This document shows positions 774 through 18,411 of a stretch of DNA of 37,996 nucleotides, piece after piece (position 1 is the first letter of the stretch; each line of letters begins with the position of its first letter). This DNA is from Caenispirillum bisanense. Lineage in GTDB: Bacteria > Pseudomonadota > Alphaproteobacteria > Reyranellales > Reyranellaceae. The stretch spans positions 1-37,996 of the forward strand of contig CAMDVZ010000004.1 in the NCBI GenBank assembly GCA_945878895.1. Direction: 5' to 3'. The notes beneath the pieces are model-generated. The model searched no databases. It was given only the letters and a program-made list of their open reading frames with translations, and was not told the origin of the DNA. The position numbers and the translations under genes were made by a program.

Positions 774-2471
774 CTACCGTCGCCGCCACGCCTGGAAACG
801 GTGCAGCACGAACCGGTCGGCCACGAGATGCGCGGCCTTCACGCTGGCTGCCGTCACCACGATCATCACGCACATCGCCGCGGCCGCCGCCACCGCACCG
901 GTGTCCTCGATGTTCACCGCGGCGATCGAGGCGAGCTTGGTGTCGGTCGAATAGAGGAAGATGGCGGCCGACACCGTCGTCAGCGCGTTGACGAACATGT
1001 AGATCGCGATGTCGACCAGGGTGGGCAGGCAGATCGGCACCGTGACGCGGAAAAACGTGCGCCACACCGGCACCTTCAGCGAGGCCGAGACGGCCTCGAA
1101 CTCGGGGTCGATCTGCTTGAGCGCCGTCGTCGCGGTCAGATGGGCGGTCGTGTAGAAGTGCGCGATGGTGTTGAGCGTCAGGATCGCCATCGTGCCGTAG
1201 AGAAAATTCAGCGGGTTGGCGGGCGCGTTGAAAAAGAAAATGTAGCTCAGGCCCAGCACCAGGCCCGGCACCGCCATCGGCACGAAGGCCAGCAGCTGGG
1301 CCACGGCGCGGCCGAGCGCGAAGCCCCGCGTGCGCTCCATCAGCCAGGCGCCGGCGAAGATGAGCGCGGTGCCGAAGATCGCGGTGCCGAAGGCCAGCTC
1401 GATCGAGTTGGCGAAGGAGTTCCAGCCGTTGGCGTCGAAATTGCCGAACGCGTAATTGGCCCAGCTCAGGCTCAGATTGTAGGGCCAGTATTTGATCAGC
1501 GAACCCCACACCGCCATGCCGAGCACCGCCAGGATGCCGGCGGCAATGGTCAGGCAAAACGCCAGCAGGGCCAGATCGCGGCCGGCTTGCGGTCGCGGCA
1601 TCAGCGGCACCGCGCGCGCCGTCAGCATCGCGACCTGGCGGCGCTGCACGATCCTGTCGACCACGAAGGCGAGTGCTGCCGGCGCCAGCAGCACCATGCC
1701 GACCACGGCGCCCATCTCGAAATTCTGCTGGCCGATCACCTGCTTGTAGACGTCGGTGGCGAGCACGTTGAAATTGCCGCCGATCACCTTGGCGATGCCG
1801 AAATCGGTCAGCACCAGGGTGAACACCACCAGCATGGCGCTGATCAGGCCGTAGCGGACGCCGGGCAGGGTGACGGTGAGGAATATCCGCAATGGCGAGG
1901 CACGCAGCGAGATCGCGGCCTCGTACAGGCGCGAATCGGCCAGGGCGAGCGCGGTGACCAGGATCATCGTGGCGTGCGGGAAGCAGTAGAACACCTGGGC
2001 CGTGACGATGCCCTCGAAGCCGTAGATCGAGCCGCCGCCCAGCAGGGCCTTGAAGAAGCCCTGGTTGCCGAACAGGTAGATCAGCGCCAGGCCCGGCAAC
2101 AGCGAGGGCGCGAAAATCGGCACCAGCGCCACGCCCTGGAAGAACCAGCGGAACGGCAGCACGGCCCGCGTCAGGGCGTAGGCGTAGACGAAGGCCAGCG
2201 GCACCACGATCAGGGTGACCATCGCGGCAACGTGCAGGCTGTTGAGCGCGGAGTGGAACAGGGCCGGCGTGGAGAAATAGGTCGCGTAGTTGGCGAGGCC
2301 GACGAAGGCGCCGTCGCGGTTCTGGAAGCTCTTGGACAATAGCGTCCATAGCGGCAAGGCGACGGCCAGCAGCAGCCAGGCGATCAGCAACAGCAGGCCC
2401 GCCCGCATGATCAGGTCGTCGCGCGAGGCCGCGACCTTCGCCGTCGACCGGGAACCGCCGAACCACGCCAT
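774..2471 (-). CDS. Putative 2-aminoethylphosphonate ABC transporter, double-domain permease
   Basis: 565 aa, many TM segments, two binding-protein-dependent permease halves; directly downstream of the ATPase and binding protein; PhnU/PhnV or FbpB-like fused permease architecture. Confidence 0.85.
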   Translation of the reverse strand: MAWFGGSRSTAKVAASRDDLIMRAGLLLLIAWLLLAVALPLWTLLSKSFQNRDGAFVGLANYATYFSTPALFHSALNSLHVAAMVTLIVVPLAFVYAYALTRAVLPFRWFFQGVALVPIFAPSLLPGLALIYLFGNQGFFKALLGGGSIYGFEGIVTAQVFYCFPHATMILVTALALADSRLYEAAISLRASPLRIFLTVTLPGVRYGLISAMLVVFTLVLTDFGIAKVIGGNFNVLATDVYKQVIGQQNFEMGAVVGMVLLAPAALAFVVDRIVQRRQVAMLTARAVPLMPRPQAGRDLALLAFCLTIAAGILAVLGMAVWGSLIKYWPYNLSLSWANYAFGNFDANGWNSFANSIELAFGTAIFGTALIFAGAWLMERTRGFALGRAVAQLLAFVPMAVPGLVLGLSYIFFFNAPANPLNFLYGTMAILTLNTIAHFYTTAHLTATTALKQIDPEFEAVSASLKVPVWRTFFRVTVPICLPTLVDIAIYMFVNALTTVSAAIFLYSTDTKLASIAAVNIEDTGAVAAAAAMCVMIVVTAASVKAAHLVADRFVLHRFQAWRRR

Positions 2472-2475
2472 GGCG

Positions 2476-3594
2476 CTATCGGGCCGCGAACACGCGCAGC
2501 CGGTCGGCCGGCAAGGCGATGGCGATCGGCTTGCCGACGGCGAGGTCGAGATCGCGCATCAGGTTGCTGGAGAAATCCGCCACGATGGCGACCGGCGGCG
2601 ACGCCCCGGCGGATGGCCCCGTCGATACCGTCTTCAGCGTGGCGCGGCAGAAGGCGCCGAGGAAATCGAGATCGGCGATCTCGACGGCGATCCGGTTGAC
2701 CGCCGTCGCCGCCACGCCGCGGACCTGGATGTCCTCGGGCCGGATCGCCACCCGCACGGCGGTGCCGGCGGCGAGCCCATCGACGTCGGCGCAGACCAGA
2801 CGCAGGTCGCCGACGCGCGCGGTCCCGTCGCTTTCAAGCCGCCCGTCGAGGAAGGTCATGGCGCCCACGAAATCGGCGACGAAGGCGGTGGCGGGCCGGC
2901 GGTAGATTTCGTCGGGGGCACCGACCTGCTCGATCACGCCGTGGTTCATCACCACGATGCGATCGGCCATGGTCAATGCTTCTTCCTGGTCGTGCGTCAC
3001 CATGATGGTGGTAACGCCGAGCGTGCGTTGCAGCGCCTTGATCTCGTGACGCAAGCGCACCCGCACGCGCGCGTCGAGCGCCGACAGCGGCTCGTCGAGC
3101 AGCAGCAACCCCGGCGACATCGCGAGCGCCCGCGCCAGCGCCACGCGCTGCTGCTGGCCGCCCGACAGCTGGGCCGGATACTTCGCGCCTGAATCGGGCA
3201 GGCCGACCAGGGTCAGCAGGTCGCCGACGCGGGCGGCGATGGCGGCCCGGCCGGTCTTGCCGCCGACCAGGCCGTAGCCGACGTTGGCCGCCACGCTGAG
3301 ATTGGGAAACAGCGCGTAGGACTGGAACACGATGCCGAAATCGCGCCGCGACGGGGGCAGCAACGACACGTCGACGCCGCCCTGGCGGATCGTGCCGGAG
3401 GTTTGCGGATCGAGCCCGGCGATGGCGCGCAGCAACGTCGTCTTGCCGCAGCCCGAGGGCCCGAGAAAGCAAACGAACTCACCCTGCCGCATGTCGAGCG
3501 ACACGCCGCGCAGCGCCTCGAAATCACCGAACCGCTTGCCGAGCGCGCGCACCGACAGATAGGCCGGTGCGCCGGATTCCGCTGCCGTCGTCAT
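2476..3594 (-). CDS. Putative 2-aminoethylphosphonate ABC transporter, ATP-binding protein
   Basis: Walker [10 protein letters not shown], signature [15 protein letters not shown], Walker [14 protein letters not shown]-terminal TOBE-like region. ATG at 3594 preferred over the upstream start at 3633. Confidence 0.9.
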
Positions 3595-3710
3595 GCGCGA
3601 TGTTGCTCCCGGTCCGATCGTCGTTCGAAACATAGCCGCCCCGCCGGGCTACCGCATTCACACGTCCAGGCCCCGACGCGCACGTCACCCGATAGTGCTG
3701 GCGCCACTTT

Positions 3711-3766
3711 CATACCTTCCCCTGCCATCAGGGGGCGCAAGCGCTCCGGAGGCGGGGGAAGGTATG
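3711..3766. repeat. Imperfect inverted repeat / palindromic intergenic element (family 2 core); possible terminator
   Basis: CATACCTTCCCCTGCC (3711-3726) pairs with GGCGGGGGAAGGTATG (3751-3766), 15/16 positions; between the ATPase and binding-protein genes. Confidence 0.75.
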
Positions 3767-3821
3767 AGTCAGTGGATTTGAGGTGCCGCGTCCGTCGCGA
3801 GATGTGCGGACGCCCTTCAGC

Positions 3822-4862
3822 TCACTTCGGCGCCGACTTGGCGTCGTAGCGCTTCGTCCACTCCGCCAGCACGCGGGCGCGGTTGGTGGCCATCCAGTTG
3901 AGGTCGTTCTTGATCATCGCCTTCTCGCCGTCGGCGGGATAGTTGGCGGGGGCGGCCTTGACGTCGGGATGGGCGACGATGGCGTAGTACTTGCCGTAGA
4001 GCTCGTTGGCCTTGCGCGAGGCGGCCCAGTCCGCGAGCTTTTTCGCCGCGTCGGCGTTCTTCGTGCCCTTGACGATGGCGGTGGCTTCCATCTCCCAGCC
4101 CAGCCCTTCGCTGGGCACGATCAGGTCGATGGGGGCGCCCTTGGTCTTCTCGGAGGCGCCGCGCATGTCGAAGCCGATGCCGATCATGCGCTCGCCGCGG
4201 GCGGCCTGCACGCAGGGCGCCGAACCGGAATGGGTGTAGACGCCGATGTTCTCGTGCAGTCTGTCCATGTAGGCCCAGCCCTTTTCCTCGCCCATGGTCT
4301 GGAGCCAGGCCGCGATCGTCAGGTAACCGGTGCCCGACGACGCCGGGTTCGGCATCACGATCTTGCCCTTGTAGTCGGCCTTCAGCAGGTCGGCCCAGCT
4401 GGTGGGTTTGGGCGCCTTGGTCTTGTCGGCCTCGGCGGTGTTGAAGCAGACCACGGCGAGGAACGCGTCCATGCCGACCCACGATTGCGGGTTCTTGCCG
4501 CTGCGGAAGATCGGCTTGAGGCCATCGGCGCCGGCGGGAGTGTAGCCCTCGATCATGCCCTGGGCATCGAACAGCGCGACGCTGCTGGCGGCGAGGCCCC
4601 AGATCACGTCGGCGCGCGGATTGTCCTTTTCGGCCAGCAGGCGGGCGGTGATGACGCCCGTGGAGTCGCGCACCCAGGCGATCTCGATGGTCGGGTTGTC
4701 GGCCTCGAAGGCCTTCTTGTAGGGTTCGAGCTGGTCGTTCTCGAGCGCGGTGTAGACGGTCAGGCGGGTCTTCTGCGCCCATCCCTCGGCCGCCATGCCG
4801 GCCAGCGCCAGCAGCGCCGCGGCGCCCGCGAGGCCACGTTTCGTCCAGGTCGCGATAGCCAT
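3822..4862 (-). CDS. Putative 2-aminoethylphosphonate ABC transporter, substrate-binding protein
   Basis: 346 aa with N-terminal signal peptide (LAGAAALLALAGMAAEGWAQ), then family-1/iron-type extracellular binding protein sequence (LTVYTALENDQLEPYKKAFEADNPTIEIAWVRDSTGVITARLLAEKDNPRADVIWG). Confidence 0.88.
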   Translation of the reverse strand: MAIATWTKRGLAGAAALLALAGMAAEGWAQKTRLTVYTALENDQLEPYKKAFEADNPTIEIAWVRDSTGVITARLLAEKDNPRADVIWGLAASSVALFDAQGMIEGYTPAGADGLKPIFRSGKNPQSWVGMDAFLAVVCFNTAEADKTKAPKPTSWADLLKADYKGKIVMPNPASSGTGYLTIAAWLQTMGEEKGWAYMDRLHENIGVYTHSGSAPCVQAARGERMIGIGFDMRGASEKTKGAPIDLIVPSEGLGWEMEATAIVKGTKNADAAKKLADWAASRKANELYGKYYAIVAHPDVKAAPANYPADGEKAMIKNDLNWMATNRARVLAEWTKRYDAKSAPK

Positions 4863-5050
4863 CGTGTCGTCTCCCTTTGTTTCCCGTCGGCCGGTCGCGG
4901 CGCGCGCGCCAACGCCGGCATTTCGCCGATCGGGCCGGTTCGCCGCAAAAACCTTAGCACCAAGGCAAGGCTTGGCAAGACGCGGCTGTTAGACCGTCCA
5001 TGTTTCAGGCATGTTTCGGCGGCGGAATTCGTGCCTGTGGAGTGGATGCG

Positions 5051-6292
5051 ATGGACGGAACGCCCCTGGCGGCGTCGCGTGGCGGCGTCGACGTGAACGG
5101 ATTGATCGGGCGCCACCGCCCTGGTGGACCGCTGGAGCGACCCTTCTATGTCTCGCCGGAGATGTTCGCGGCCGACCTGGCCCGTATCCATTACCGGCAA
5201 TGGCTGTTCGTCGGCTACGCCTTCATGGTGCCGAAAACCGGCGACTTTTTTACCTATCAGGTCGGCACTGCCTCGGTGATCGTGGTGCGCGGCACCAACG
5301 GCGACATCCGCGCCTTCCACAATGTCTGCCGCCATCGCGGCTCGCGGATCTGCTCGACCGAAAGCGGCCACGCGCCGCGCCTGACCTGCCCCTATCACAG
5401 CTGGACCTACGATCTCGACGGCGCGCTGTTGCTCGACACCATGCGCGAGTTCGGCGTCGAGCGCGCCACGCTCGGCCTGAAGCCGGTGAAACTGATCGAC
5501 GCCGGCGGCCTGTTGTTCCTGTCGCTGGCCGACGATCCGCCGGATTTCTCCGAGGCCGCGGCGACCATTTCGCGCAAGATGCGTCCGCACCGCATCGACA
5601 AGGCAAAGATCGCCCACCAGGTCGACTATGTCGTGAAGGCCAACTGGAAGATCGTCTTCGAGAACAATCGCGAGTGCTACCACTGCGTCCCCAATCACCG
5701 CGAATACAACATCGCGGCCTACGACGTGCAGCGCGACCAGGCGCTGACCGATCCCGTCATGAAGGCGAAAATGGACGGCATCGTGGAACGCGCCAACGCC
5801 CGCTTCCGCGCGCTCGGCCTCGACGAGGGCGACGCCATGTCGACCATGACCGGCGCCTTCTGGCGCTGCCACCGCACGCCGGTGGTCGAGGGTTTCGTCA
5901 CGCAAAGCATGGACGGCAAGCCGCTGTCGCGTCTGATGGGCGACATCGGGGAGTGGGACAGCGGCACCTTGCGCACCACGATCTTCCCGAACTTCTGGCA
6001 GCACACCAATTGCGACTACGCCGCCGCGGCGCGCCTGACCCCGATCGCGCCCGACGAGACGCACGTGCGAGCCTGGTGGCTGGTCGACGAAAAGGCGGTC
6101 GAGGGCAAGGACTACACGATCGAGCGGCTGTTGCCGATCTGGGATATCACCAACCGCCAGGACTGGGCGATCTGCGATGCCCAGCAGGCCGGCGTGTCCT
6201 CGCCCGCCTACGTGCCGGGTCCCTACTCCACCGTGCGCGAACGCAACGTGGCGCAGTTTGTCGACTGGTACCTCGGCGAGATGCGGTCGTGA
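5051..6292 (+). CDS. Rieske [2Fe-2S] mononuclear-iron oxygenase, alpha subunit (N-demethylase / betaine-monooxygenase-like)
   Basis: Rieske motif CRH-X17-CPYH and mononuclear iron motif NNRECYHCVPNH. ATG at 5051 (MDGTPLAAS); the ORF is open from 5000. Confidence 0.9.
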   Translation: MDGTPLAASRGGVDVNGLIGRHRPGGPLERPFYVSPEMFAADLARIHYRQWLFVGYAFMVPKTGDFFTYQVGTASVIVVRGTNGDIRAFHNVCRHRGSRICSTESGHAPRLTCPYHSWTYDLDGALLLDTMREFGVERATLGLKPVKLIDAGGLLFLSLADDPPDFSEAAATISRKMRPHRIDKAKIAHQVDYVVKANWKIVFENNRECYHCVPNHREYNIAAYDVQRDQALTDPVMKAKMDGIVERANARFRALGLDEGDAMSTMTGAFWRCHRTPVVEGFVTQSMDGKPLSRLMGDIGEWDSGTLRTTIFPNFWQHTNCDYAAAARLTPIAPDETHVRAWWLVDEKAVEGKDYTIERLLPIWDITNRQDWAICDAQQAGVSSPAYVPGPYSTVRERNVAQFVDWYLGEMRS

Positions 6293-8709
6293 GCGTTCCC
6301 GGTTCGGCCCGGATCGTCGTCGTCGGCGGCGGCGCCGTCGGCTGTTCGATCGCCTATCACCTGGCCAGGCTTGGCCTGCGCGACGTCGTCGTGCTGGAAA
6401 AGAGCGGCCTGACGCACGGCTCGACCTGGCACGCCGCCGGCCTGGTCGGCCAGTTGCGCGGCAAGCGCAACCTCACCAGGCTGATGCAGTACAGCGCCCA
6501 ACTGTACGGCTCGCTGGAGGCCGAGACCGGCCAGGCGGTCGACTGGAAGCCGGTCGGCAGCCTGCGGCTGGCCTCCTCGCGCGAACGCTGGAGCGAGCTG
6601 AAGCGCATGGCGACGACCGCGCGGAGTTTCGATTTCGAGCTGCACGCGCTCTCGCCGAAGGAAGCGCTGGAGAAGTTTCCCCTGATGTCGCTGCAAGGCG
6701 TGGTTGGCGCGGTGTTCGTGCCCAACGACGGCTCCGTCGATCCCTCCAGCCTGACGCAAGCCTACGCGAAGGGCGCGCGGGCGGCCGGCGTGCGCTTCGT
6801 CGAGGGCGTGCTGGTGACCGGCTTCGAGCATCGCGGCCGTCGCGTGAGCCGCGTGCTGACCGACCAGGGCGCCATCGATTGCGAGATCGTGGTCAACGCC
6901 GCGGGCATCTGGGCGCGCGACGTGGCGAGAATGGCCGGCGTGCGCGTGCCCGCGGGCGCCGTCGAACACCAGTACGTCGTCACGGAAAAGCGCGACGACC
7001 TGCCGAAAAACCTGCCGACCCTGCGCGATCCCGACAAGATTTTCTATCTCAAGCCCGAACCCGGCGCGCTGGCGATCGGTGGCTGGGAACGCGGCACGCC
7101 GACCTTCGGCGCGAACGGCGTACCCTTCGCATTCGGCCGCGAACTGCTGCAGCCGCATCAGGAGCGGCTGGAGCAGTTCCTGGTGCCCGCCGCCGAACGC
7201 CTGCCGATCCTCAACGACATCGGCATCCGCACGGTGATCAACGGCCCGATCCCGATCTCGCCCGACGGCGAGCCGATCATGGGGCTGGCACCCGAGCGCG
7301 ACAATTTCTACGTCGCCTGCGGTTTCACCTCGGGGATCGCGGCCTCCGGCGGTGCCGGCAAGGCGATGGCGGAATGGATCGTCGAGGGCGAGCCCGGCAT
7401 CGACCTGTGGGCCTTCGACGTCCGCCGCTTCGGCAACCACCACATGAGCGCGAAGTACCTCGCGGAACGCTCGGTCGACAGCTACTGGCGCTACTACCAG
7501 ATCCACTACCCGATCGAGGAACTGACGAGCGCCCGCGGCGGCCGGCGCAGTCCCCTGTACGAAACGCTGAAGGCGCAAGGCGCGGTGTTCGGCTCGCGGT
7601 TCGGCTGGGAGCGTCCCAACTGGTTCGCGCCCGAGGGCGTCGCGCCGGTCGACGAGCCCTCGTTCGAGGCGCGGCCGAACTGGTTCGAGCCTGTCGGCGC
7701 GGAGTGCCGCGCCGCCCGCGAACGCGCGGTGATCATCGACCAGAGCTCCTTCACGAAGTTCGAAATAGCGGGCCCCGGCGCGCTGGCGGCATTGCAACGC
7801 CTCGCCGCCAACGACCTCGACAGGCCGGCGGGGTCGCTGATCTACACCCAGCTGTGCAACGAGCGCGGCGGCATCGAGGCCGACGTCACCTTCGTGCGGA
7901 TCGACGAGACGCGTTTCTATCTGGTGACGGGAAGCGCCTTCGGCGTGCGCGACATGGGCTGGATCCGGCCGCGATTACCGACCGACGGCTCGGTGACCGT
8001 CCAGGAACTCACCTCGACGCGCACCACGCTCAATCTCGCCGGACCGCTGTCGCGCCGCATTCTCGAAAAAGTGGCCGACGGCGACACGAGCGACGCCGCC
8101 TTCCCCTACATGAGCGCGCGCCGGCTCCATATCGGCTACGCGCCGGTCTACGCGTTGCGCGTCACCTATCTCGGCGAGCTCGGCTACGAACTGCACATGC
8201 CGCAGGAATACACCGCGCACGTCTACGAAATCCTGCGCGAGGCGGGCCGCGAATTCGGCCTCGCCAACGCCGGCTATCGCGCCATCGAATCGCTGCGTCT
8301 GGAAAAGCGCTATCTCTACTGGGGCGCCGACATCACGCCGGACTACACGCCGTACGAGGCTGGCCTCGGCTTCGCGGTGTCGCTCAAGAAGAACGTCGAC
8401 TTCATCGGCCGCGCGGCCCTGGAACGCGCGAAGGCCGAGGGGCCGAAACGCAAGCTGATCACCCTGCTGGTCGACGCGCCGGTTCAACTCTACGGCGGCG
8501 AGGCGATCCGGCGCGGCGGCAAGACGCTGGGCGTGACGTCGAGCGGCGGCTGGGGCCATACGATCGGCAAGGCCATCGCGTTCGGCTACGTGCCGATCGA
8601 GGAGGCTGGCCACGCCGACTACGAGATCGAGGCCTTCACGCAACGCCACGCCGCGACCCGGATCGACGGCGCCGCCGTCGATCCGAAAGGAGCGAAGATC
8701 AGGGCGTGA
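6289..8709 (+). CDS. FAD-dependent oxidoreductase with C-terminal GcvT-like folate domain (dimethylglycine/sarcosine dehydrogenase family)
   Basis: N-terminal VVVGGGAVGCSIAYHLARLG dinucleotide fold, GSTWHAAGL (covalent-flavin His context of DMGDH), C-terminal aminomethyltransferase-like region. GTG start overlaps the Rieske stop (GTGA). Confidence 0.9.
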   Translation: MSVPGSARIVVVGGGAVGCSIAYHLARLGLRDVVVLEKSGLTHGSTWHAAGLVGQLRGKRNLTRLMQYSAQLYGSLEAETGQAVDWKPVGSLRLASSRERWSELKRMATTARSFDFELHALSPKEALEKFPLMSLQGVVGAVFVPNDGSVDPSSLTQAYAKGARAAGVRFVEGVLVTGFEHRGRRVSRVLTDQGAIDCEIVVNAAGIWARDVARMAGVRVPAGAVEHQYVVTEKRDDLPKNLPTLRDPDKIFYLKPEPGALAIGGWERGTPTFGANGVPFAFGRELLQPHQERLEQFLVPAAERLPILNDIGIRTVINGPIPISPDGEPIMGLAPERDNFYVACGFTSGIAASGGAGKAMAEWIVEGEPGIDLWAFDVRRFGNHHMSAKYLAERSVDSYWRYYQIHYPIEELTSARGGRRSPLYETLKAQGAVFGSRFGWERPNWFAPEGVAPVDEPSFEARPNWFEPVGAECRAARERAVIIDQSSFTKFEIAGPGALAALQRLAANDLDRPAGSLIYTQLCNERGGIEADVTFVRIDETRFYLVTGSAFGVRDMGWIRPRLPTDGSVTVQELTSTRTTLNLAGPLSRRILEKVADGDTSDAAFPYMSARRLHIGYAPVYALRVTYLGELGYELHMPQEYTAHVYEILREAGREFGLANAGYRAIESLRLEKRYLYWGADITPDYTPYEAGLGFAVSLKKNVDFIGRAALERAKAEGPKRKLITLLVDAPVQLYGGEAIRRGGKTLGVTSSGGWGHTIGKAIAFGYVPIEEAGHADYEIEAFTQRHAATRIDGAAVDPKGAKIRA

Positions 8710-8879
8710 CGGCGCGGTATGTCGCGCGGACTGGACCGGTTTCGGGACCGGTTGAAACGCCGACAATCGAATACGGACCGGGACCGCGCCACCCCGGTGG
8801 TCCGACCTTCGCGACGGCACTGCCTGCGCCACGGCCAGTCACGCCCGCCACCGGAGAGGCGCGTTCATGGGCGCTGGCT

Positions 8880-9022
8880 TTGGGCCGAAATGGTTGGCGC
8901 ACCAGCGAAAGGTCCAAAACCGGTGTCATCCCGAGCTTGCCGAGGGACCTTTTCTCTTTGTTTCCATGATTCTTTGCGCCCCCGGCTCCGCGCTGAGGTC
9001 CCTCACTGCGTTCGGGATGACA
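8880..9022. repeat. Dispersed palindromic repeat, family 1, copy B (with left and right arms)
   Basis: Left arm TGTCATCCCGAGCTTGCCGAGGGACCT (8924-8950), right arm AGGTCCCTCACTGCGTTCGGGATGACA (8996-9022); 71-bp block 8880-8950 is repeated at 9177-9247. Confidence 0.9.
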
Positions 9023-9176
9023 GCAGTGGGGTGCAGGCGCCGATGCGTCGAGACGCGAAAATATCGGTTTTCGCTACCGCTGCTGGCTTACGCGCACAGC
9101 CTTGCACCAATCCCCGGGCGCACGCCGCAGGCTCAAAGCTAGCGTCGCTGGAGTGGCCTGCTCATGGGAGTTAACC

Positions 9177-9314
9177 TTGGGCCGAAATGTTTGGCGCACC
9201 AGCGAAAGGTCCAAAACCGGTGTCATCCCGAGCTTGCCGAGGGACCTCGATGCGGTAACGCGACCGCACCAAGCCTCGAAGAATCCGGGGTCCCTCGCTG
9301 CGCTCGGGATGACA
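9177..9314. repeat. Dispersed palindromic repeat, family 1, copy C (with left and right arms)
   Basis: Left arm 9221-9247 identical to copy B; right arm GGGTCCCTCGCTGCGCTCGGGATGACA (9288-9314). Confidence 0.9.
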
Positions 9315-9441
9315 TCGGTGGGGTCGCGCGACGGTGCGTAGAGCGATCAGCCCAAGGTCAGCGCCCATCAGCGGCGCGCTCCCGCGCGGTGCGGCTCCGG
9401 CGACGATTCCGGCGACTTGAAGATTACTCCAGGAGATCCAC

Positions 9442-10227
9442 ATGAACCACGCCGCACGACACGAACTCGCCACGATGCTCGCGACCCTGCGGCGCGAGCA
9501 TCGTGCCCGCAGTGGGCTCGACGCGCGGCTGGTGCCACCCGACAAGGCGGCCGCCTACGAGGTCGCGGCGCTGGTCGCGGTAGAGCTCGGCTGGCCCGTC
9601 GTCGGCTGGAAGATCGCCGCCGCCAAGGCCGAAATGCAGCGCCAGCTGCGCACCGACGCGCCGATCTATGGACGCGTCCTCGCGCCCGGCGTGGTCGAAA
9701 GACCGGCGACATTCGAGCACGCGCGGCTGGTCAATCCGATTCCGGAACTGGAATACATCGCGATCCTCGGCCGCGATCTGCCGCCGCGGCCGAGGCCCTA
9801 CACGGAGCACGAGATCGCTGAGGCGGTCGCCGCGATGCATGTCGGCGTCGAGGTCGCGGAATGCCGCTTCACGCACGACCCGGCCTTCCCGCCGCTGGCC
9901 GCGATCCTCGCCGACGGCAGCGGCTCGGGCACGCTCGTGCGGGGACCGGCCATAGCCGACTGGCGTCATCGCGACATCGCAGGCCAGGAGGTCGTTCTCC
10001 TGGTCGACGGCGTCGCCCGCCGCCGCGGCAACGCAGGCGATGCGCTCGACCATCCGCTGGTGCCGCTGACCTGGCTGGCCAACGAACTCTCGCGCACCGG
10101 CGTGGGCATGAAGGCCGGCGAGGCGATCAGCACCGGCACGCTGACGGGCATGCTAAAGCCGAAAAAAGGCGAACGGCACCTCGCCGATTTCGGCCCGTTC
10201 GGCAGCGTCGAGGTGTTGTTCGCCTGA
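9442..10227 (+). CDS. 2-keto-4-pentenoate hydratase / fumarylacetoacetate hydrolase family protein
   Basis: 261 aa; VVGWKIAAAKAEMQRQL, PIPELEYIAILGRDLPP, AEAVAAMHVGVEVAECRF, ISTGTLTGMLKPKKGE, as in MhpD-like hydratases. Confidence 0.82.
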   Translation: MNHAARHELATMLATLRREHRARSGLDARLVPPDKAAAYEVAALVAVELGWPVVGWKIAAAKAEMQRQLRTDAPIYGRVLAPGVVERPATFEHARLVNPIPELEYIAILGRDLPPRPRPYTEHEIAEAVAAMHVGVEVAECRFTHDPAFPPLAAILADGSGSGTLVRGPAIADWRHRDIAGQEVVLLVDGVARRRGNAGDALDHPLVPLTWLANELSRTGVGMKAGEAISTGTLTGMLKPKKGERHLADFGPFGSVEVLFA

Positions 10228-10236
10228 CCGCGCGGC

Positions 10237-11736
10237 TCAGCGTTTCGGCGTCGAGAACTCCAGCGCCTTGTCCGCGACCGTGCCGAAGCGCAAGGTCAGC
10301 AGGTCCCTGATGTAGTTCTGGTAGAGCTTCCACGGCCGCTTCGAGCCCTGTTTGGGCAACGTGTCGAGCGAACGCAGGATGTAGTTCGAGGACAGGTCGA
10401 GCCACGGCTCGGGCGTCACGTCGGGGTCGCGACGGGGAGCGACGGTCGTCCAGCCGCGCGATTGCATGCGATTCAGCAGCCGGCACATGTGCTCGGAAAC
10501 AAGGTCGGCCTTCAGGGTCCACGAGGCGTTGGTGTAGCCCGACCACAGCGCGAAGTTGGGCACGCCGGTGAACATCATGCCCTTGTACGTCATCGTGCTG
10601 GCCGGATCGATCGCGCGTCCGTCGACCGACAACGCCATGCCGCCCCAGCCCTTGAGCGTCAGGCCGGTGGCGGTGACGACGATGTCGCCGTCGAGTTCCA
10701 CGCCCGACTTCATTTTCAGGCCGGTCGCGGTGAAGCGCTCGATCTCGTCGGTGACGACCGAGACCTTGTCGCGGCGGATGGCACGGAACAGGTCGGCGTC
10801 GGGAATCAGGCACAGGCGCTGGGTCCACGGATTGTAGGTCGGCGTGAAATGCTTGCCGACGTCGTAGTCCGGACCCAGCATCTGGCGCACGCCGCCCAGC
10901 AAGAGGCCACGCGCGCGCGCCGGATCGCGCCGGCACAGGCGGTAGAAATACATGCCCATCAGCACGTTCTTCCAGCGCGTCAGCGTGTAGGCGAGCCCCA
11001 TCGGCAGGCGCCGCCGCAGTCTGTCGGCGAGGCGATCGCGGGCGGGTCGGGCGACGGCGTAGGTCGGCGAGCGCTGCACCATCGTCACGTGCGCCGCGGT
11101 TTGCGCCATCGCCGGCACCAGCGTCATGGCGGTGGCACCCGAGCCGATCACCAGCACGCGCTTGCCCGACCAGTCGATGTCCTCGGGCCAGAACTGCGGA
11201 TGCACGCGCGTGCCCTTGTAGTCGGCCATGCCGGGAAAGTCGGGCAGATAGCCCTTGTCGTAGTCGTAGTAGCCCGAGCAGGCGAACAGGAAGCCGCAGG
11301 TCATGCGGACCCGCTCGCCGTCGGGTCGGCGCGCCAGCTCGACGGTCCAGCGCGCGTCGGCCGAGGACCAGGCCGCCGCGACGACCTCGTGGTGGAACCG
11401 GATGGCGCGGTCGATCCCGAAATCGCGTGCCACGCCCTCGACATAGGCGCGGATGTCGGCGCCATCGGCGATCGCCTTCTCGCCGGTCCATGGCCGGAAC
11501 GAGTAGCCGAGCGTGAACATGTCGGAATCCGAGCGGATGCCGGGATAGCGGAACATATCCCACGTCCCGCCGATGGCGCCGCGCGCCTCGACGATCGCGT
11601 AGGTCCGGCCGGGGCAGTGCCTTTGCAGATGCCAGGCGGCGCCGATCCCGGACAGGCCGGCGCCGACGATCAGCACGTCGACATGGTCGGGAGGCGCCGG
11701 AGGGATTCGATCGTCCATCGGCGATTCATCGGGCAT
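10237..11736 (-). CDS. Flavin-containing / Baeyer-Villiger-type monooxygenase
   Basis: VDVLIVGAGLSGIG, Baeyer-Villiger-like fingerprint YKGTRVHPQFWP (F-x-G-x3-H-x3-W-P with Y for F), second Rossmann VLVIGSGATA. Start ATG 11736 (or 11718). Confidence 0.9.
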   Translation of the reverse strand: MPDESPMDDRIPPAPPDHVDVLIVGAGLSGIGAAWHLQRHCPGRTYAIVEARGAIGGTWDMFRYPGIRSDSDMFTLGYSFRPWTGEKAIADGADIRAYVEGVARDFGIDRAIRFHHEVVAAAWSSADARWTVELARRPDGERVRMTCGFLFACSGYYDYDKGYLPDFPGMADYKGTRVHPQFWPEDIDWSGKRVLVIGSGATAMTLVPAMAQTAAHVTMVQRSPTYAVARPARDRLADRLRRRLPMGLAYTLTRWKNVLMGMYFYRLCRRDPARARGLLLGGVRQMLGPDYDVGKHFTPTYNPWTQRLCLIPDADLFRAIRRDKVSVVTDEIERFTATGLKMKSGVELDGDIVVTATGLTLKGWGGMALSVDGRAIDPASTMTYKGMMFTGVPNFALWSGYTNASWTLKADLVSEHMCRLLNRMQSRGWTTVAPRRDPDVTPEPWLDLSSNYILRSLDTLPKQGSKRPWKLYQNYIRDLLTLRFGTVADKALEFSTPKR

Positions 11737-11762
11737 GGCGTCCGCCAAGGCAAGCCACCACT

Positions 11763-12578
11763 CTACGGTTTCATGAACGCGCCCAGCTGCGGCGAGGACA
11801 ATGCCCGGTCGAGGAAGCCGAAGCTGCCGTGGTCCTTCACCTCGCGCGCGGCTTCCAGCAATCCGCCCATCGCGGCGCGGTAGAGCGCGGTCGCCAAACT
11901 GATGCGGCGCACCCCGGCGGCTTCGAGCGACGCGACGTCGAACGACTTGCCCTTGATGCCGGCCATGAAGCTGAACGGTTTCGAGAGCGACGCGCAGACC
12001 TTCTTCACCGCGTCGAGGTCGGGCAGGCCCGGCGCCATCAGCACGTCGGCGCCGACTTTCTCGTAGGCCTGAAGCCGGCGGATCGTCTCGTCGAGATCGG
12101 GCGCGCCGCGCAAGAACCCTTCGCAGCGCCCCGTCAGCACGAAGGGCACCGGCAACGATCTGGCGGCCTTCGACGCGGCTTCCATGCGCGCCACCGCGTG
12201 GTCGAGATCGTAGGTCCGCGTGCCGCTCCAGTCCTCGATCGAACCGCCGACCAGGCCGACGCCGCACGCCTGGCGGATCGTTTCGGCCGCGTCCTCCGGC
12301 GTATCGCCGAAGCCCTGTTCGAGATCGGCCGCCACCGGCAGATCGCATGAGTCGACGATCAGGCGCGCGTTGGCCAGCGACTCCGCGCGACTGACCGCGC
12401 CGTCGCGGCGGCCGAGCACGCCGGCCTTGGCACCGCTGGAGGTCGCCAGCGCCTCGAAGCCGACGCCGGCCAGCAGGCGGGCCGAGCCTGCGTCCCACGG
12501 ATTGGCGATGACGAAGGCGCGCGGCCCCGCGTGCAGGGCCTGGAATTTCGCGGCCTTGTCGGCCTGGCTGACGCTCAT
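11763..12578 (-). CDS. Isocitrate lyase / phosphoenolpyruvate mutase superfamily protein (paralog 2)
   Basis: FVIANPWDAGSARLLAGVGFEALATSSG, LPVAADLEQGFGDTPEDAAETIRQA, GLVGGSIEDWSG, FVLTGRCEGFL. ATG at 12578 (MSVSQADKAAKF). Confidence 0.9.
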   Translation of the reverse strand: MSVSQADKAAKFQALHAGPRAFVIANPWDAGSARLLAGVGFEALATSSGAKAGVLGRRDGAVSRAESLANARLIVDSCDLPVAADLEQGFGDTPEDAAETIRQACGVGLVGGSIEDWSGTRTYDLDHAVARMEAASKAARSLPVPFVLTGRCEGFLRGAPDLDETIRRLQAYEKVGADVLMAPGLPDLDAVKKVCASLSKPFSFMAGIKGKSFDVASLEAAGVRRISLATALYRAAMGGLLEAAREVKDHGSFGFLDRALSSPQLGAFMKP

Positions 12579-12668
12579 GGTGGTTCCCCGTTGCCGCAAT
12601 CGACGACCGCCGATCCTCGCCGCCGCCGGACCCGCGTCAACCGCTACATTGTCACCACGTCGCCACGG

Positions 12669-13484
12669 TCAGTTCCGGAACACCGGCTTCAACGCGCTGG
12701 TCGGCAGCGTGTCGTTCATCCAGCCGAAACGCCCCGCCTTCATTTCGGCGGCCCCCTTCATGAAGGCCGCCAGCGCCAGCCGCGACAGCGCGCCACCGAC
12801 GCTGATCCGCTTGACGCCGGCAGCTTCGAGTTCCCCGGCCGTCAGCGATGGATCGGCGGCACTCATGACTACGTTGATGGGCTTGCCGACGGACGCCACG
12901 ACGGTGCGGATGGTGGCGAGGTCGCGCAAGCCCGGCGCGTAGAGCACGTCGGCGCCGGCCTTCTCGAAGGCTTGCAAGCGCCGGATCGTGTCGTCGAGAT
13001 CGGCGCGGCCGCGGATCAGGTTTTCGGCCCGCGCGGTAAACGTGAACGGCACCGGCAGCGAGCGCGCCATCTCGACGCCGGCCGCGACCCGTTCGACGGC
13101 GTGGTTGAAATCGTAGAGCGCCGAGCCGCTCCAGTCCTCGATCGAGCCGCCGGATATCCCCGCAGCCGCGGCGTCGCGCAGAATCGTGGCGGCCTGCCTC
13201 GGATCGTCGGCGTAGCCGTTCTCGAGATCGGCGTTGACCGGCAGATCGGTGGCTTCGGCAATGACGCGGCAATTCTCCAGCAACTCGGCGCGGGAGACGG
13301 CGTTGTCGCCGTCGACCCGCCCCAGCGCGTTGGCGAGACCCAGGCTCGTGGTCGCCAGCGCCTCGAACCCCAGCGACGCCAGCAGCTTGGCGCTGCCCGC
13401 GTCCCACGGATTGGGCAACAGGAGGAGACCGGAGCGCTCGTGCAGGGCCTTGAACGCGGCACCCTTGTCGGCATTGCTACGCAT
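12669..13484 (-). CDS. Isocitrate lyase / phosphoenolpyruvate mutase superfamily protein (paralog 1)
   Basis: MRSNADKGAAFKALHERSGLLLLPNPWDAGSAKLL, LPVNADLENGYADDP, GGSIEDWSG, FTFTARAENLIRG. ATG at 13482-13484; lies inside the longer 1207-aa open frame. Confidence 0.9.
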   Translation of the reverse strand: MRSNADKGAAFKALHERSGLLLLPNPWDAGSAKLLASLGFEALATTSLGLANALGRVDGDNAVSRAELLENCRVIAEATDLPVNADLENGYADDPRQAATILRDAAAAGISGGSIEDWSGSALYDFNHAVERVAAGVEMARSLPVPFTFTARAENLIRGRADLDDTIRRLQAFEKAGADVLYAPGLRDLATIRTVVASVGKPINVVMSAADPSLTAGELEAAGVKRISVGGALSRLALAAFMKGAAEMKAGRFGWMNDTLPTSALKPVFRN

Positions 13485-13510
13485 GACCGTCTCCGATGAA
13501 AACGAAAACC

Positions 13511-14968
13511 TCACCCCGGCCAGGGCAGCGACCAGGTCTTCACGTTGGTGAAGCTCTTCATCGCCTCCAGCACGCCTTCCTTGTAGCCCAGACCGGAGTC
13601 CTTGATGCCGCCGAAGGGCGACATCTCGATCCGATAGCCCGGCACCTCCCACACGTTCACGGTGCCGACCTCGAGTTCGTCGACGAAGCGCGTGATGTAG
13701 TCGAGCCGGTTGGTGCAGACGCCAGACGACAGACCATAGGCGGTGCCGTTGGAAACACGGATGGCGTCGTCGATGTCCTTGACGCGGATGACCGGGATCG
13801 CGGGTCCGAAGGTTTCCTCGCGCACCAGTTCGCAGGCGGGATCGACATGGTCGACCACGGTCGGCGGAAACAGCGCGCCGCGCCGGTCGTTGCCGCACAG
13901 CAGCCTGGCGCCGTGGTTGGCGACGGCGTCGTTGACGCGGTTCTGGAACAGGGTCGCGGCGCGCTCGTGGATGACGGTGCCGACGTCGGTCTCGGGATCG
14001 AGCGGATCGCCGGCCTTGAGCTTGCGCGCCTTGGCGAGCACGCGTTCGACGAAGGCATCGGCGATCGACGCGACGACGAGGATGCGCTTCACCGCCGTGC
14101 AGCGCTGGCCGGAATTTTTCGTGGCGCCCTGCACGGCGAGGTCGGCGGCCTTGTCGAGGTCCGCGTCCTCCATGACGATCAGCGGATCGTTGCCGCCGAG
14201 TTCGAGCACGAGGCGCTTGTAGCCGGCGGTCGCGGCGATGTGCTTGCCGACCCGCACCGAGCCGGTAAAGGTCACCAGATCGGCACGCGGATCGGTGATC
14301 ATCGCGTCGCCGATGTCGGACGGATTGCCGGTAATCACCGACAGCATCTCGGGCGGCAGCCCTGCCTCGTAGAGCGTGTCGGTGAGGAACAGCGCCGTCA
14401 GCGGCGTCAGTTCGGTCGGTTTCAGCACGACGCAGTTGTTGGTGGCGAAAGCCGGCGCGAGCTTGTGCGCCACCATGTTGAGCGGATGGTTGAAGGGCGT
14501 GATGGCGCTGATGGCGTTGAGCGGCTGGCGCAGGGTGAAAATCTTGCGCGACTTGCCGTGCGGGGTGAGATCGCACGAGAAGGTCTGGCCGTCGTCGAGC
14601 AGGCAGAGCTGGCCCGCGAAGGTGAACACGTCGAAGGCGCGGCCGACCTCGTAGAGCGAGTCCTTCAGGCAGAGGCCGGTCTCCAGCGTGATCAGGCGCG
14701 ACAGCTCCGCCTTGCGCGCCACCAGCAGGTCGGCGGTCTTGAGCATGATCTGCTGGCGCTGGTAGCGGGTCAGTTTCGGCTTGTAGGCGTGCGCGATCCG
14801 GAATGCCTCGGCCACCAGTTCCGGCGTGGCGCGCGGCACGGTGCCGACCAGCCGGTTGTCCCACGGATAGCGGACTTCCAGCGTGGCGCCGGTCTCGACC
14901 TTGCGGCCCGCGATGCGCAGTTGTTCGTGCCTGACGTCGCTGCCGAGCGGGCGCGTGATCACGTTCAT
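13511..14968 (-). CDS. phnY: Phosphonoacetaldehyde dehydrogenase (aldehyde dehydrogenase superfamily)
   Basis: 485 aa [78 protein letters not shown]. Immediately downstream of phnA and phnW. Confidence 0.88.
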
Positions 14969-14977
14969 GGTCTTGCC

Positions 14978-16240
14978 TCAGACGACGAGATTGAGCGCCA
15001 GATCGAAGGCGTCGAAATTGCGCCAGCGCCGGCCCGGATGCTCGCCCGCGAGCTTGCGGTTGCAGATCAGCGGCACCTTCTGCTCCGACACGCCGCCATG
15101 GCTGCGCAGCGGCTCGGTCAGGCCGGAGAGATCGTGTCGGGCGGCGCTGGTGCCCAGCACCTTGTGCTTTGTCGACACCACGACGAGATCGCCCAGCCGG
15201 TCCGGCGGCAGTTCGTAGCGGGCGCACGCCTCCGCCCTGGGCAACGCCGCCTCGATGCCAGGGATCGCGCGCAGCTTCGCCGCCATCGCCTCGACCGGTT
15301 GGCCAGCCGGCAAATAGACCACCGCGAAGGAACCCAGCGCGCCGTGATGCACCACGTAGGGGTCGGTGATCGGCAGGATCACGCGCGCCGCGCCCGTGCC
15401 GAGCCAACCGTCGAACAGGTCCTGGAGATAGATCACGTCGGGTTGGCCGTCCGAACCATGCTTGGCGTTCATGCCGTGGTCGGCGGTCAGCACGATGGTG
15501 CAACCCATGGCGTCGAGCTTGCCCATGTAGCCATCCATCATGGCGTAGAAATCGTTGGCGACCGGCGTGCCCGGCGCGTGCTTGTGCTGGATGTAGTCGG
15601 TGGTCGAGAGATACATGACCGGCGGCCGGTCCCGCTCCATGAGTTTCACGCCGGCGGCGAACACGAATTCCGACAGCGCGGCGCTGTAGACATCCGGCAC
15701 GGCCATGCCGACCAGCGCGTTGACGTTCTCGATGCCGTTCTCCGCGAGGCTCGCCTTGTCCGATTTTTCCGACGAAAAGCTGCAGGCGCGACCGGGCGCC
15801 AGTTCCAGCCCCTTGCCGAGCAGGCCGCGCAGCTTGTCCTTGGCGGTCACCACGGCGATCCGGCAGCCGGCGCGCTGGAACGCCGGGAACAGCGTCTCCA
15901 CGCGCAGGAACCTGGGATCGTTCATCATCACTTCCTTGCCCGTGTCGGGGTCGAGGAAGTAGTTGCCGCAGATGCCGTGGACGGCGGGCGGCTGGCCCGT
16001 CACGATCGACAAATTGTTGGGATTGGTGAAGGTCGGCACCACGCAATCGGCCACGATCGAGGTGCCCTCGCGCAACACCCGCGCGAACCATGGCGCCCGG
16101 CCGGCCTCGACGGCGCGTTCGATGTAGCCGGGCTCGGAACCGTCGATGCAGACCACGACCGTCGGCCGCGTCGGCAAGCGATAGGACCGGCCGTTGACGT
16201 CGATGCTGCCGGTGGCCGGCATGAGACTGTCGGGTGCCAT
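14978..16240 (-). CDS. phnA: Phosphonoacetate hydrolase (alkaline phosphatase superfamily)
   Basis: VVVCIDGSEPGYIERAVEAGRAPWF, VVPTFTNPNNLSIVTGQPPAVHGICGNYFLDPDTG, VLTADHGMNAKHG; ATG at 16240; between phnW and phnY. Confidence 0.92.
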   Translation of the reverse strand: MAPDSLMPATGSIDVNGRSYRLPTRPTVVVCIDGSEPGYIERAVEAGRAPWFARVLREGTSIVADCVVPTFTNPNNLSIVTGQPPAVHGICGNYFLDPDTGKEVMMNDPRFLRVETLFPAFQRAGCRIAVVTAKDKLRGLLGKGLELAPGRACSFSSEKSDKASLAENGIENVNALVGMAVPDVYSAALSEFVFAAGVKLMERDRPPVMYLSTTDYIQHKHAPGTPVANDFYAMMDGYMGKLDAMGCTIVLTADHGMNAKHGSDGQPDVIYLQDLFDGWLGTGAARVILPITDPYVVHHGALGSFAVVYLPAGQPVEAMAAKLRAIPGIEAALPRAEACARYELPPDRLGDLVVVSTKHKVLGTSAARHDLSGLTEPLRSHGGVSEQKVPLICNRKLAGEHPGRRWRNFDAFDLALNLVV

Positions 16241-16251
16241 GGCGATCTCCT

Positions 16252-17409
16252 CTATTCCGCGGCCATCGCCGGCGAACCGACGGCGACGCCAAGTTCGTCC
16301 AGCACTTCGCGTACCGCCGTCAGCGCGCCGCGCATGTCGGCGGGATACAGCCGGCCGATGCAGCCCATGCGGAAGCTGTCGGCGACGGTCAGCTTGCCCG
16401 GGTAGATCACGTAGCCGCGGTCCTTGAGCCCGTCGTAGAAGCGCTGGAACGCGAAGTTCGGATCGGTCGGCATGTGGAAGGTGACGATGATCGGCGCCTG
16501 CAACGCGTCGGGCAGCAGCGTGCGGAAGCCGAGCGCCCGCATGCCCTCGATCAGCACCCTGCCGTTTTCGCGGTAGCGCCCGCCGCGACCCGCGACGCCA
16601 CCCTCGGCCCTGTGCTCCTCGATGGCGCGGCCGAGCGCCACGATGACGTGGATCGGCGGCGTGAAGCGCCACTGACCGTTCTTGCGGAAGCCTTCGTGCT
16701 GGTCGTGCAGATCGAGCACCAGGGTCGTGGCGTTGCCGGCGCAGGCCGCCAGCGCCTCCTCGCGGCAGACCACGAAGCCGAGTCCGGGCACGCCCTCCAG
16801 GCACTTGTTGCTGGAGGCCGCCAGCGCGTCGTAGCGCACCGCGCTGGCGTCGATCTCCAGCGCGCCGAACGCGCTCATCGAATCGACCAGCAGACGCCGG
16901 CCACGCTTCGCCACGATGTCGGCGATCTCGCGAATCGGATTGAGGATGCCCGACGTGGTCTCGCAATGAACCGCGAAGACGTGGGTGATGGCGGCGTCGC
17001 CCGCCAGCATCGCGTCGAGTCTGGCGAGATCGGGCGGCGTGTCCTCGGGCGTCTCCAGCACGGCGACCGCGCGGCCGGCGGTCTTGGCGATCCTGATGGC
17101 GCGCTGGCCGTAGGCGCCGTTGACCAGCAGCAGCAGCTTGCCCGCGCGCGGCACGAAGCTGGTGATCATCGCCTCGACGGCAAAGGTGCCGCTGCCCTGC
17201 ATCGGCACGGTGACGTGGGTGCCGACGCCACCGGCGATCTCGACGATGCGATCCATCACCATCCGGTTGATGCGGATGAACGCGGCGTCGCGGGAGCCCC
17301 AGTCGTGCACCATCGCCTGCTTGACGGTGCGCGACGTGGTGAGCGGCCCCGGCGTCAGCAGCAGGGCGTCGCCGGTCTCGGAGGCCGCGACGTGGGAAGG
17401 CACAGGCAT
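16252..17409 (-). CDS. phnW: 2-aminoethylphosphonate--pyruvate transaminase
   Basis: LLLTPGPLTTSRTVKQAMVHDWGSRDAAFIRINRMV, VPMQGSGTFAVEAMI, FAVHCETTSGILNPI, DSMSAFGALEID, ASSNKCLEGVPGLGFV. ATG 17409 is preferred; the frame opens at TTG 17451. Confidence 0.95.
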   Translation of the reverse strand: MPVPSHVAASETGDALLLTPGPLTTSRTVKQAMVHDWGSRDAAFIRINRMVMDRIVEIAGGVGTHVTVPMQGSGTFAVEAMITSFVPRAGKLLLLVNGAYGQRAIRIAKTAGRAVAVLETPEDTPPDLARLDAMLAGDAAITHVFAVHCETTSGILNPIREIADIVAKRGRRLLVDSMSAFGALEIDASAVRYDALAASSNKCLEGVPGLGFVVCREEALAACAGNATTLVLDLHDQHEGFRKNGQWRFTPPIHVIVALGRAIEEHRAEGGVAGRGGRYRENGRVLIEGMRALGFRTLLPDALQAPIIVTFHMPTDPNFAFQRFYDGLKDRGYVIYPGKLTVADSFRMGCIGRLYPADMRGALTAVREVLDELGVAVGSPAMAAE

Positions 17410-17496
17410 GGCAACCTCGTCGGTGTCCGGCGATGTCGCCGTTTCGGCCAAGGTCGGCTATCGCAAGCCATCAATCCAATATATAATTTTAATACG

Positions 17497-17515
17497 ATCC
17501 ATCGGTTACACGGAT
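17497..17515. promoter_or_regulatory. Candidate LysR-type operator in the phnW / LysR divergent intergenic region
   Basis: ATCC-N11-GGAT dyad, compatible with the T-N11-A LysR box, in an AT-rich 138-bp divergent spacer. Confidence 0.4.
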
Positions 17516-17547
17516 ATGACGCTGCTCCCGACGATCCCCCGCGCGCC

Positions 17548-18411
17548 ATGACCCCCAGCCAGTTGCGCGCGTTCCATCTCGTCGCCGTCGCCGGCGGCTA
17601 CACCGGTGCCGCGCGCGAGGCCAACGCCAGCCAGGCCAACCTGTCGGGCCAGGTTCTGGCGCTGGAGCGCGCCTACGACGTGCGGTTGTTCGACCGGCTT
17701 GGACGCGGCGTGCGGCTGACGGACACGGGCCAGCAATTGTTCTCACTGACCGGCCGTCTGTTCGCGCTGGAGGACGAGGCGCGCGCCCTGCTCGCGGGCG
17801 AGAGCGCGCCGACGCGCGGTCATTTGCGCATCGCCGCCGACAGCGCCCATCACGTGGTGCCGCTGATGAGCGCCATCCGCGCCGCCCATCCCGACGTCAC
17901 TTTCGCGCTGGCGATCGACAACTCCGACGCCGTGCTCGACCGCCTCGCCCGCTACGACGCCGATGTCGCGGTCACCGCGCGCGGCGTGTCGGACCCGAAG
18001 CTGAGCGCCGTCCGCATCCGGTCGGACCGGATCGTGCTGTTCGCGCCGCGCGGCCACCGGCTGGCCGGGCGCCGCCGGGTGTCGCTGAAGGTCCTCGACG
18101 GCGTCGATCTGGTGTTGCGCGAACGCGGCTCGATCACGCGAGAGGTGCTGGAACGGGCAATGGCGGCGGCCGGCGTGCGGCCCGCGCGCATCACCGAGGT
18201 CGAGACCCGCGAAGGCGTGCGCGAGGTGGTGGCCGCCGGCTTCGGCATCGGCGCGGTGTTCGAAAGCGAGTTCGCCGGCGACGACAGGCTGGTCGGCCTG
18301 CCGATCGCCGAACCCGGCCTCGACGTGGCGGAGTACGCGGTCTGCCTGCGCCAGCGTCGCCGTCTGCCGCTGGTGCGCGCCTTCATGGAGGCAGCCGAGC
18401 AGTCCGGTTGA
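17548..18411 (+). CDS. LysR family transcriptional regulator (phosphonate-locus associated)
   Basis: N-terminal wHTH MTPSQLRAFHLVAVAGGYTGAAREANASQANLSGQVLALERAYDVRLFDRLGRGVRLTDTGQ; divergent from phnW. ATG at 17548. Confidence 0.92.
   Translation: MTPSQLRAFHLVAVAGGYTGAAREANASQANLSGQVLALERAYDVRLFDRLGRGVRLTDTGQQLFSLTGRLFALEDEARALLAGESAPTRGHLRIAADSAHHVVPLMSAIRAAHPDVTFALAIDNSDAVLDRLARYDADVAVTARGVSDPKLSAVRIRSDRIVLFAPRGHRLAGRRRVSLKVLDGVDLVLRERGSITREVLERAMAAAGVRPARITEVETREGVREVVAAGFGIGAVFESEFAGDDRLVGLPIAEPGLDVAEYAVCLRQRRRLPLVRAFMEAAEQSG

Follow-up and report, generated by a model that had tools for sequence, protein, structure and literature searches.

We have found, next to genes for the uptake and hydrolytic degradation of aminoethylphosphonate (AEP), a Rieske oxygenase and a FAD-GcvT enzyme which are encoded side by side. 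They are located in a stretch of 37,996 nucleotides from Caenispirillum bisanense, which we will call the window. The likeness of the pair to betaine demethylases, its position in an AEP cluster and the fact that it travels together with AEP-degradation genes indicate that it probably demethylates methylated AEP, so that its phosphorus is set free. We consider it quite likely that the two enzymes are an ancillary front end, which admits N-methylated AEP to the hydrolytic AEP pathway; the substrate itself we infer. Trimethyl-AEP is a natural phosphonate from which neither PhnW nor the tested PbfC/D enzymes can start. On balance we favour a stepwise oxidative N-demethylation of this compound, by the Rieske enzyme and then by the DMGDH-like or by a stand-alone FAD enzyme, which would give AEP for PhnW and either PhnYA or PhnX. 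Such a route has no prior description in the literature searched; it would span Alphaproteobacteria, Burkholderiales, Verrucomicrobiota and Planctomycetota and would include the first Rieske oxygenases known to act on phosphonates. If true, a demethylating front end lets a very common AEP pathway accept more substrates, phosphonate use becomes tied to the folate one-carbon pool and the Rieske clade may serve as a marker for counting the trait in environmental data. The proposed route also offers a specific enzymatic test.

Organization of the locus

Three transporter genes are located on the reverse strand of the window: PhnU2, the fused permease (774–2471; TIGR03262, 775 bits, cut-off 593), PhnT2, the ATPase (2476–3633; TIGR03265, 504 bits, cut-off 458), and PhnS2, the substrate-binding protein (3822–4862; TIGR03261, 487 bits, cut-off 393). 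All of them are above the curated cut-offs, as expected for the AEP-type ABC transporter of the original prediction. The Rieske oxygenase (5051–6292, with Pfam domains Rieske and Ring_hydroxyl_A) and the FAD-GcvT enzyme (6289–8709, with DAO, FAO_M, GCV_T and GCV_T_C) are on the forward strand, divergent from the transporter genes. These domain matches agree with the two adjacent enzymes that had been predicted from the letters. The stop of the first gene and the start of the second share the letters GTGA in 6289–6292: the pair is translationally coupled. The divergent promoter region between PhnS2 and the Rieske gene (4863–5050) has a box, CRCAAAA(A)CCTTARCA, which by visual comparison appears to be kept in three other loci (L032, L034 and L035). 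A search for an operator common to this region and to the PhnW/LysR promoter found none; all that emerged was this box, conserved within close relatives of the window.

The second group of genes is found further on. PhnY, the phosphonoacetaldehyde dehydrogenase (13511–14968; TIGR03250, 815 bits, cut-off 636), PhnA, the phosphonoacetate hydrolase (14978–16204, its upper limit being taken from the family match; TIGR02335, 571 bits, cut-off 408), and PhnW, the AEP-pyruvate transaminase (16252–17451; NF010006, 514 bits, and TIGR03301, 455 bits, cut-offs 296–401), are all on the reverse strand. They form one cluster and each one exceeds its curated cut-off, which confirms the complete PhnW-PhnA-PhnY set. 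A regulator of LysR type is divergent from phnW on the forward strand (17548–18411, with a start deduced by us); it is likely a member of the phn-LysR subfamily, with a score below the threshold (TIGR03339, 274 bits, cut-off 341). No gene similar to TmpA or TmpB was recognised in the window, as had been noted before.

It is established that the families PhnW, PhnY and PhnA convert AEP into phosphonoacetaldehyde, phosphonoacetate and finally acetate plus Pi, and the same steps would close the route proposed here. It would start with the import of methylated AEP by PhnS2T2U2. The Rieske enzyme would then hydroxylate an N-methyl group of trimethyl-AEP, and formaldehyde would be released to leave dimethyl-AEP, by analogy with group Vb chemistry. 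The DMGDH-like enzyme would act next, oxidising an N-methyl group of dimethyl-AEP and probably also of monomethyl-AEP; its GcvT domain would pass the one-carbon unit to THF, which gives methylene-THF, and AEP would be left. Electrons for the Rieske enzyme would come from an unlinked reductase. It weighs against the proposal that no reductase gene was recognised in the cluster; the only FAD_binding_6 reductase found in this metagenome-assembled genome (MAG), our candidate C212, is located elsewhere and is nearer to PaaE than to GbcB, below the cut-off for both.

Nature of the two enzymes

The predicted structure of the Rieske oxygenase (AF2, pLDDT 94) has Stc2 (3vca) as top fold match, with a TM score of 0.88. 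It has the complete group Vb signature defined in PMC7948474 and PMC10952381: the bridging E208, the pair C209/C212, N206 and the residues H211/H216/D371. The Rieske and iron ligands, the bridging Glu and the Cys pair are shared with GbcA and Stc2, as well as an Asn where CntA has Tyr203, and oxidative N-demethylation is the expected reaction. Since the signature is that of quaternary-amine N-demethylases, the route is likely entered at trimethyl-AEP, and di- and monomethyl-AEP would follow as intermediates.

The window protein differs from GbcA and Stc2 by its genomic company, which are phn genes, and by its place in the tree. It belongs to a clade of 33 rows, apart from the GbcA-like and Stc2 demethylases (SH-aLRT 100), and it only reaches 376 bits with the GbcA model NF058607, which has a cut-off of 670. 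Within group Vb, this Rieske clade is new. Residues which are nearly fixed in the GbcA-like and Stc2 proteins are replaced. Beside the iron ligands, Y219 is found in 33/33 clade members, with Leu in 67/67 GbcA-like/Stc2 proteins, and W372 in 32/32, with Arg in 64/67; F315 takes the place of Thr/Ser and V195 that of Glu. The changes fixed next to the iron ligands are compatible with a shifted substrate. A conserved gain of Arg or Lys pointing to phosphonate binding was sought at the Rieske site and none was found, which counts against the proposed substrate.

The FAD-GcvT enzyme has the architecture, fold and signature residues of DMGDH and dimethylglycine oxidase: DAO-FAO_M-GcvT domains, the FAD-linking H48, the dyad H227/Y253 and the folate-site D532. 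Its closest PDB match is rat/human DMGDH, with a TM score of 0.94. It differs from these enzymes in an identity of about 37% to DMGDH and in its proposed substrates, which are phosphonate analogues. Two paralogs in its own genome are closer, with an identity of about 46%. We searched its active site for phosphonate-specific basic residues and found none.

The nearest characterised relatives of the pair are GbcA, Stc2 and DMGDH, as it should be if it were an ordinary glycine-betaine pair, a GbcA-like monooxygenase with a dimethylglycine dehydrogenase, found in or near phn clusters by accident. We consider this explanation unlikely. The low GbcA score and the separate clade with its fixed differences argue against it, and the two DMGDH-type paralogs could take care of dimethylglycine.

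Association with phosphonate genes in other genomes

We compared 385 genomes of the class, of which 13 carry the clade Rieske and 372 do not. The FAD-GcvT gene is adjacent to it in all 13. PhnA is present in 12/13 carriers and in 32/372 of the others (Fisher p 1.4e-11); when genomes are collapsed into families the values are 7/7 and 17/149 (p 9e-7), the family total being a lower bound. Most of these genomes are MAGs, kinship is handled by the family collapse only and shared ecology could inflate the co-occurrence. In a GbcA-like control PhnA is found in 7/20. All 13 carriers have a PhnW match, 12 of them above the cut-off; the other one (G231) is a fragment at a contig edge. G200 is the lone carrier that lacks PhnA; there PhnX immediately follows PhnW. 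Across the whole clade, PhnA or PhnX is present in 29/32 genomes; for the sister clade the count is 10/48 (p 3e-10). The co-occurrence in the clade is nearly constant even when the genes are unlinked. Six clade carriers lack PhnA: three have PhnX and the other three (L047, L048 and L051) have neither gene.

Physical linkage is variable. Clade genes neighbour phn genes in several phyla, and at least three arrangements occur. Transporter genes are divergent from the Rieske gene in the window, L032, L034, L035, L011 and L022. In a Burkholderiales MAG (L050) the FAD-GcvT, Rieske, PhnW, PhnU2T2S2, PhnA and PhnY genes are all within 13 kb, and in a Verrucomicrobium (L043) the order is phnW-phnA-phnY-rieske, all co-directional, with gaps of 27–84 bases. 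The flanks of the betaine-type Rieske loci L053–L111 have no comparable phn set. The co-location of the pair with phn genes exceeds chance. The conservation in other genomes which the original prediction called for is thus found, and its demethylating front end for PhnW is supported by repeated linkage and co-occurrence which are absent in the GbcA-like/Stc2 sister clade. In most carriers the pair has no adjoining phn genes (for example L019–L021, L023 and L041), and this frequent stand-alone position would suit a glycine-betaine pair; the absence of the PhnA/PhnX association from sister-clade genomes does not. The GbcA score, the tree and the co-occurrence led us to set aside glycine betaine as the main reading.

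The pair might also dispose of glycine betaine freed from trimethyl-AEP in the same cell by an oxidative route of TmpA/TmpB type. Phn-HD (PhnZ/TmpB-like) oxygenases are indeed present in 17/26 carriers tested, and the genome of the window, about 90% complete, has two of PhnZ type outside the window. However, these two have 172 and 160 bits on the TmpB model, with a cut-off of 300, and one of them adjoins phnC/phnD. The two richest clusters beyond the window (L043 and L050) belong to genomes without a Phn-HD match, and the association is with PhnA/PhnX, which that route does not need. We find this explanation very improbable.

Relation to known routes

TmpA/TmpB is the only breakdown route of trimethyl-AEP reported in PMC10590968 and PMC10574752. 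It has the same starting compound as the route we propose, but TmpA hydroxylates trimethyl-AEP and TmpB cuts the C-P bond, giving glycine betaine and Pi; here the N-methyl groups would be removed before PhnA cuts the C-P bond hydrolytically. PbfB, PbfC and PbfD are three groups of ancillary PF01266 FAD enzymes in phnWX and phnWYA clusters, which admit N-methyl-AEP with PAA and methylamine as products; they are inactive on trimethyl-AEP and no Rieske partner is described (PMC10590968). In the window there is a Rieske enzyme, the FAD enzyme is fused to GcvT and the expected product is AEP. The GcvT fusion and the relationship with DMGDH argue against membership in these groups; the TIGR03364 model (PbfD1-type) gives 60 bits, below its cut-off of 285. 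A search of the literature, mostly without subscription journals and preprints, gave no relevant paper on a Rieske enzyme in AEP catabolism. The proposed demethylation route is best read as a variant of AEP hydrolytic catabolism, new with respect to PbfB/C/D and TmpA/TmpB in the literature searched.

Another N-methylated phosphonate, such as N-methylated 1-hydroxy-AEP, might be the substrate and also end in AEP or phosphonoacetaldehyde. The same genomic evidence would apply, and several methylated and hydroxylated AEPs were weighed as candidate substrates in PMC10590968. We hold this to be decidedly unlikely: we recognised no gene of PbfA type in the window, and trimethyl-AEP would be the simplest quaternary amine that gives the substrate of PhnW. 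A case that speaks against trimethyl-AEP is a Chloroflexi locus of the clade (L038): it adjoins a gene for a methyltransferase of the MttB family, and its substrate may be a different one.

Association of the pair with phosphonate breakdown

The strongest single argument is that the pair formed by the Rieske oxygenase and the FAD-GcvT protein tracks phosphonoacetaldehyde breakdown, by either PhnA or PhnX, since PhnW turns AEP into phosphonoacetaldehyde. PhnA is present in 44 of the 385 genomes of the class which we sampled. Thirteen of the 385 carry the pair (Rieske match at E <= 1e-110), with both genes adjacent in all of them. PhnA is found in 12 of these 13 carriers and in 32 of the 372 other genomes (Fisher p 1.4e-11); the association is kept without the window's own genome (p 1.1e-10) and when collapsed to families (p ~9e-7, the family total being a lower bound). 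Seven of the 20 genomes with a GbcA-like Rieske protein and no pair have PhnA. A PhnW match appears in all 13 carriers: 12 are over the cut-off and one is a contig-edge fragment. In G200, the one class carrier that lacks PhnA, a PhnX gene follows the PhnW gene at a distance of 114 bases. In the whole Rieske clade PhnA is found in 26 of 32 genomes, one a partial match below cut-off, and PhnX in three further genomes. Conserved co-occurrence with phosphonate genes, raised by the original prediction, is observed: PhnA or PhnX is present in 29/32 clade genomes, compared with 10/48 in the sister clade (p 3e-10).

The gene layout described at the outset is borne out by curated models: PhnU2, PhnT2 and PhnS2 (774–4862) and the run PhnW, PhnA, PhnY (17451–13511) are on the minus strand, and a LysR gene diverges from this run. 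The Rieske gene (5051–6292) and the gene for the DAO/FAO_M/GcvT protein (6289–8709) lie on the plus strand, with 188 bases between them and the divergent PhnS2 gene; their reading frames overlap by GTGA. Phosphonate genes also adjoin the pair in L032, L034, L035, L011 and L022; in these and in the window the AEP transporter genes diverge from the Rieske gene. A Burkholderiales MAG (L050) has the pair, PhnW, transporter, PhnA and PhnY inside 13 kb, and in a Prosthecobacter-type MAG (L043) phnW, phnA, phnY and rieske are co-directional, with gaps of 27, 30 and 84 bases. The GbcA-like/Stc2-type loci L053–L111 show no comparable phn gene set within 10 kb. In many carriers the pair does not lie beside phn genes.

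The Rieske oxygenase and its clade

Quaternary amines are the substrates of group V Rieske oxygenases (PMC7948474). Group Vb (GbcA, Stc2) carries out N-demethylation and has Asn at the place of CntA Tyr203 (PMC7948474), with a Cys-x-x-Cys pair beside the iron (PMC10952381). All of these group Vb residues are present in the window protein: the Rieske centre C93/H95/C113/H116, N206, bridging E208, C209/C212 and the iron ligands H211/H216/D371. Among solved structures, stachydrine demethylase and a related Rieske protein come nearest to it, both by sequence and by predicted fold (pLDDT 94, TM 0.88); on NCBI's GbcA model it scores 376 bits against a cut-off of 670.

In a quick-search tree of 102 Rieske proteins, with support by SH-aLRT only, it falls in a group of 33 rows (SH-aLRT 100, stem 0.51) apart from a 67-row group of Stc2 and GbcA-like proteins. 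The members of the 33-row group are alphaproteobacterial, burkholderial, verrucomicrobial, planctomycete and chloroflexal. Fixed differences from the sister clade are found next to the iron ligands (Y219 for Leu, W372 for Arg) and at V195 (Glu) and F315 (Thr/Ser). A basic residue that the clade has acquired and that would mark a phosphonate site was looked for and not found.

The matching FAD-GcvT group has 20 rows, from the alpha- and betaproteobacterial clade members and one Verrucomicrobium. In other Verrucomicrobia and in Planctomycetes a stand-alone FAD amine oxidoreductase, not a GcvT fusion, comes after the Rieske gene, directly so in L037, L039, L044, L046, L049 and L051; in L049 an ETF alpha subunit is encoded nearby as well. 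The Chloroflexi locus L038, whose flanks hold no phn genes, has an SBP_bac_6 ABC transporter and an MttB-family methyltransferase beside the clade Rieske and FAD-GcvT genes; L048 has a similar layout, judged by gene size. The L038 pair possibly has another substrate. The clade may thus not be uniform in substrate, because of this member and of three genomes that have neither PhnA nor PhnX.

The FAD-GcvT protein and other functions in the carriers

Mammalian dimethylglycine dehydrogenase is the nearest solved structure to the FAD-GcvT protein, by sequence and predicted fold (pLDDT 88, TM 0.94). The window protein keeps His48 for FAD linkage, the dyad of His227 and Tyr253, and Asp532 at the folate site. 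Human DMGDH has weak sarcosine-demethylating activity as well (PMC5082570), so a single FAD-GcvT enzyme could take off both remaining methyls. Two further DMGDH-type FAD-GcvT proteins on contigs C28 and C24 of the same genome (L030, L031), ~46% identical to that of the window, are candidate enzymes for the ordinary use of dimethylglycine or sarcosine.

No reductase gene was recognised near the pair; a single FAD_binding_6 reductase was found in the 90%-complete MAG, on another contig, and its resemblance to PaaE and GbcB is below threshold. PhnZ-type HD oxygenases occur elsewhere in the window's genome and in 17 of the 26 carriers tested, therefore other phosphonate routes coexist. The two in this genome (L119, 5922–8431 of C1; L120, 766–1605 of C416) fall short of both the TmpB and the Phn-HD cut-off, and one of them is followed by phnC and then phnD.

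Known routes and neighbouring features

PbfB, PbfC and PbfD oxidize N-methyl-AEP to phosphonoacetaldehyde and methylamine; trimethyl-AEP is not taken by the enzymes studied, and TmpA/TmpB is called the sole route described for it (PMC10590968). The Rieske/FAD-GcvT pair is absent from the term matches in the 2025 PbfF study, and a literature search, with most subscription papers outside its coverage, gave nothing relevant on a Rieske enzyme in AEP catabolism. Since the literature searched shows no such pair, we class it, with moderate to good confidence in its predicted function, as a variant of AEP hydrolytic catabolism not previously described, and the Rieske group as a new clade of group Vb enzymes with a putative substrate.

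The PhnS2/Rieske divergent promoter has a box, CRCAAAA(A)CCTTARCA, conserved among close relatives of the window (window 4863–5050; L032 4497–4686; L034 9814–10000; L035 9617–9807). Three other genes are also near the pair in L032–L034, in changed order: a hydratase/FAA-hydrolase-like gene (9442–10227, plus), an FMO/Baeyer-Villiger-like monooxygenase (10237–11685, minus) and an ORF with no Pfam match (12531–13499, plus). The last is perhaps no real gene, because the aligned translations of L032 and L033 contain stops. An AbiEii-type nucleotidyltransferase gene (35300–36352, plus) encodes an ordinary component of type IV toxin-antitoxin or defence systems.
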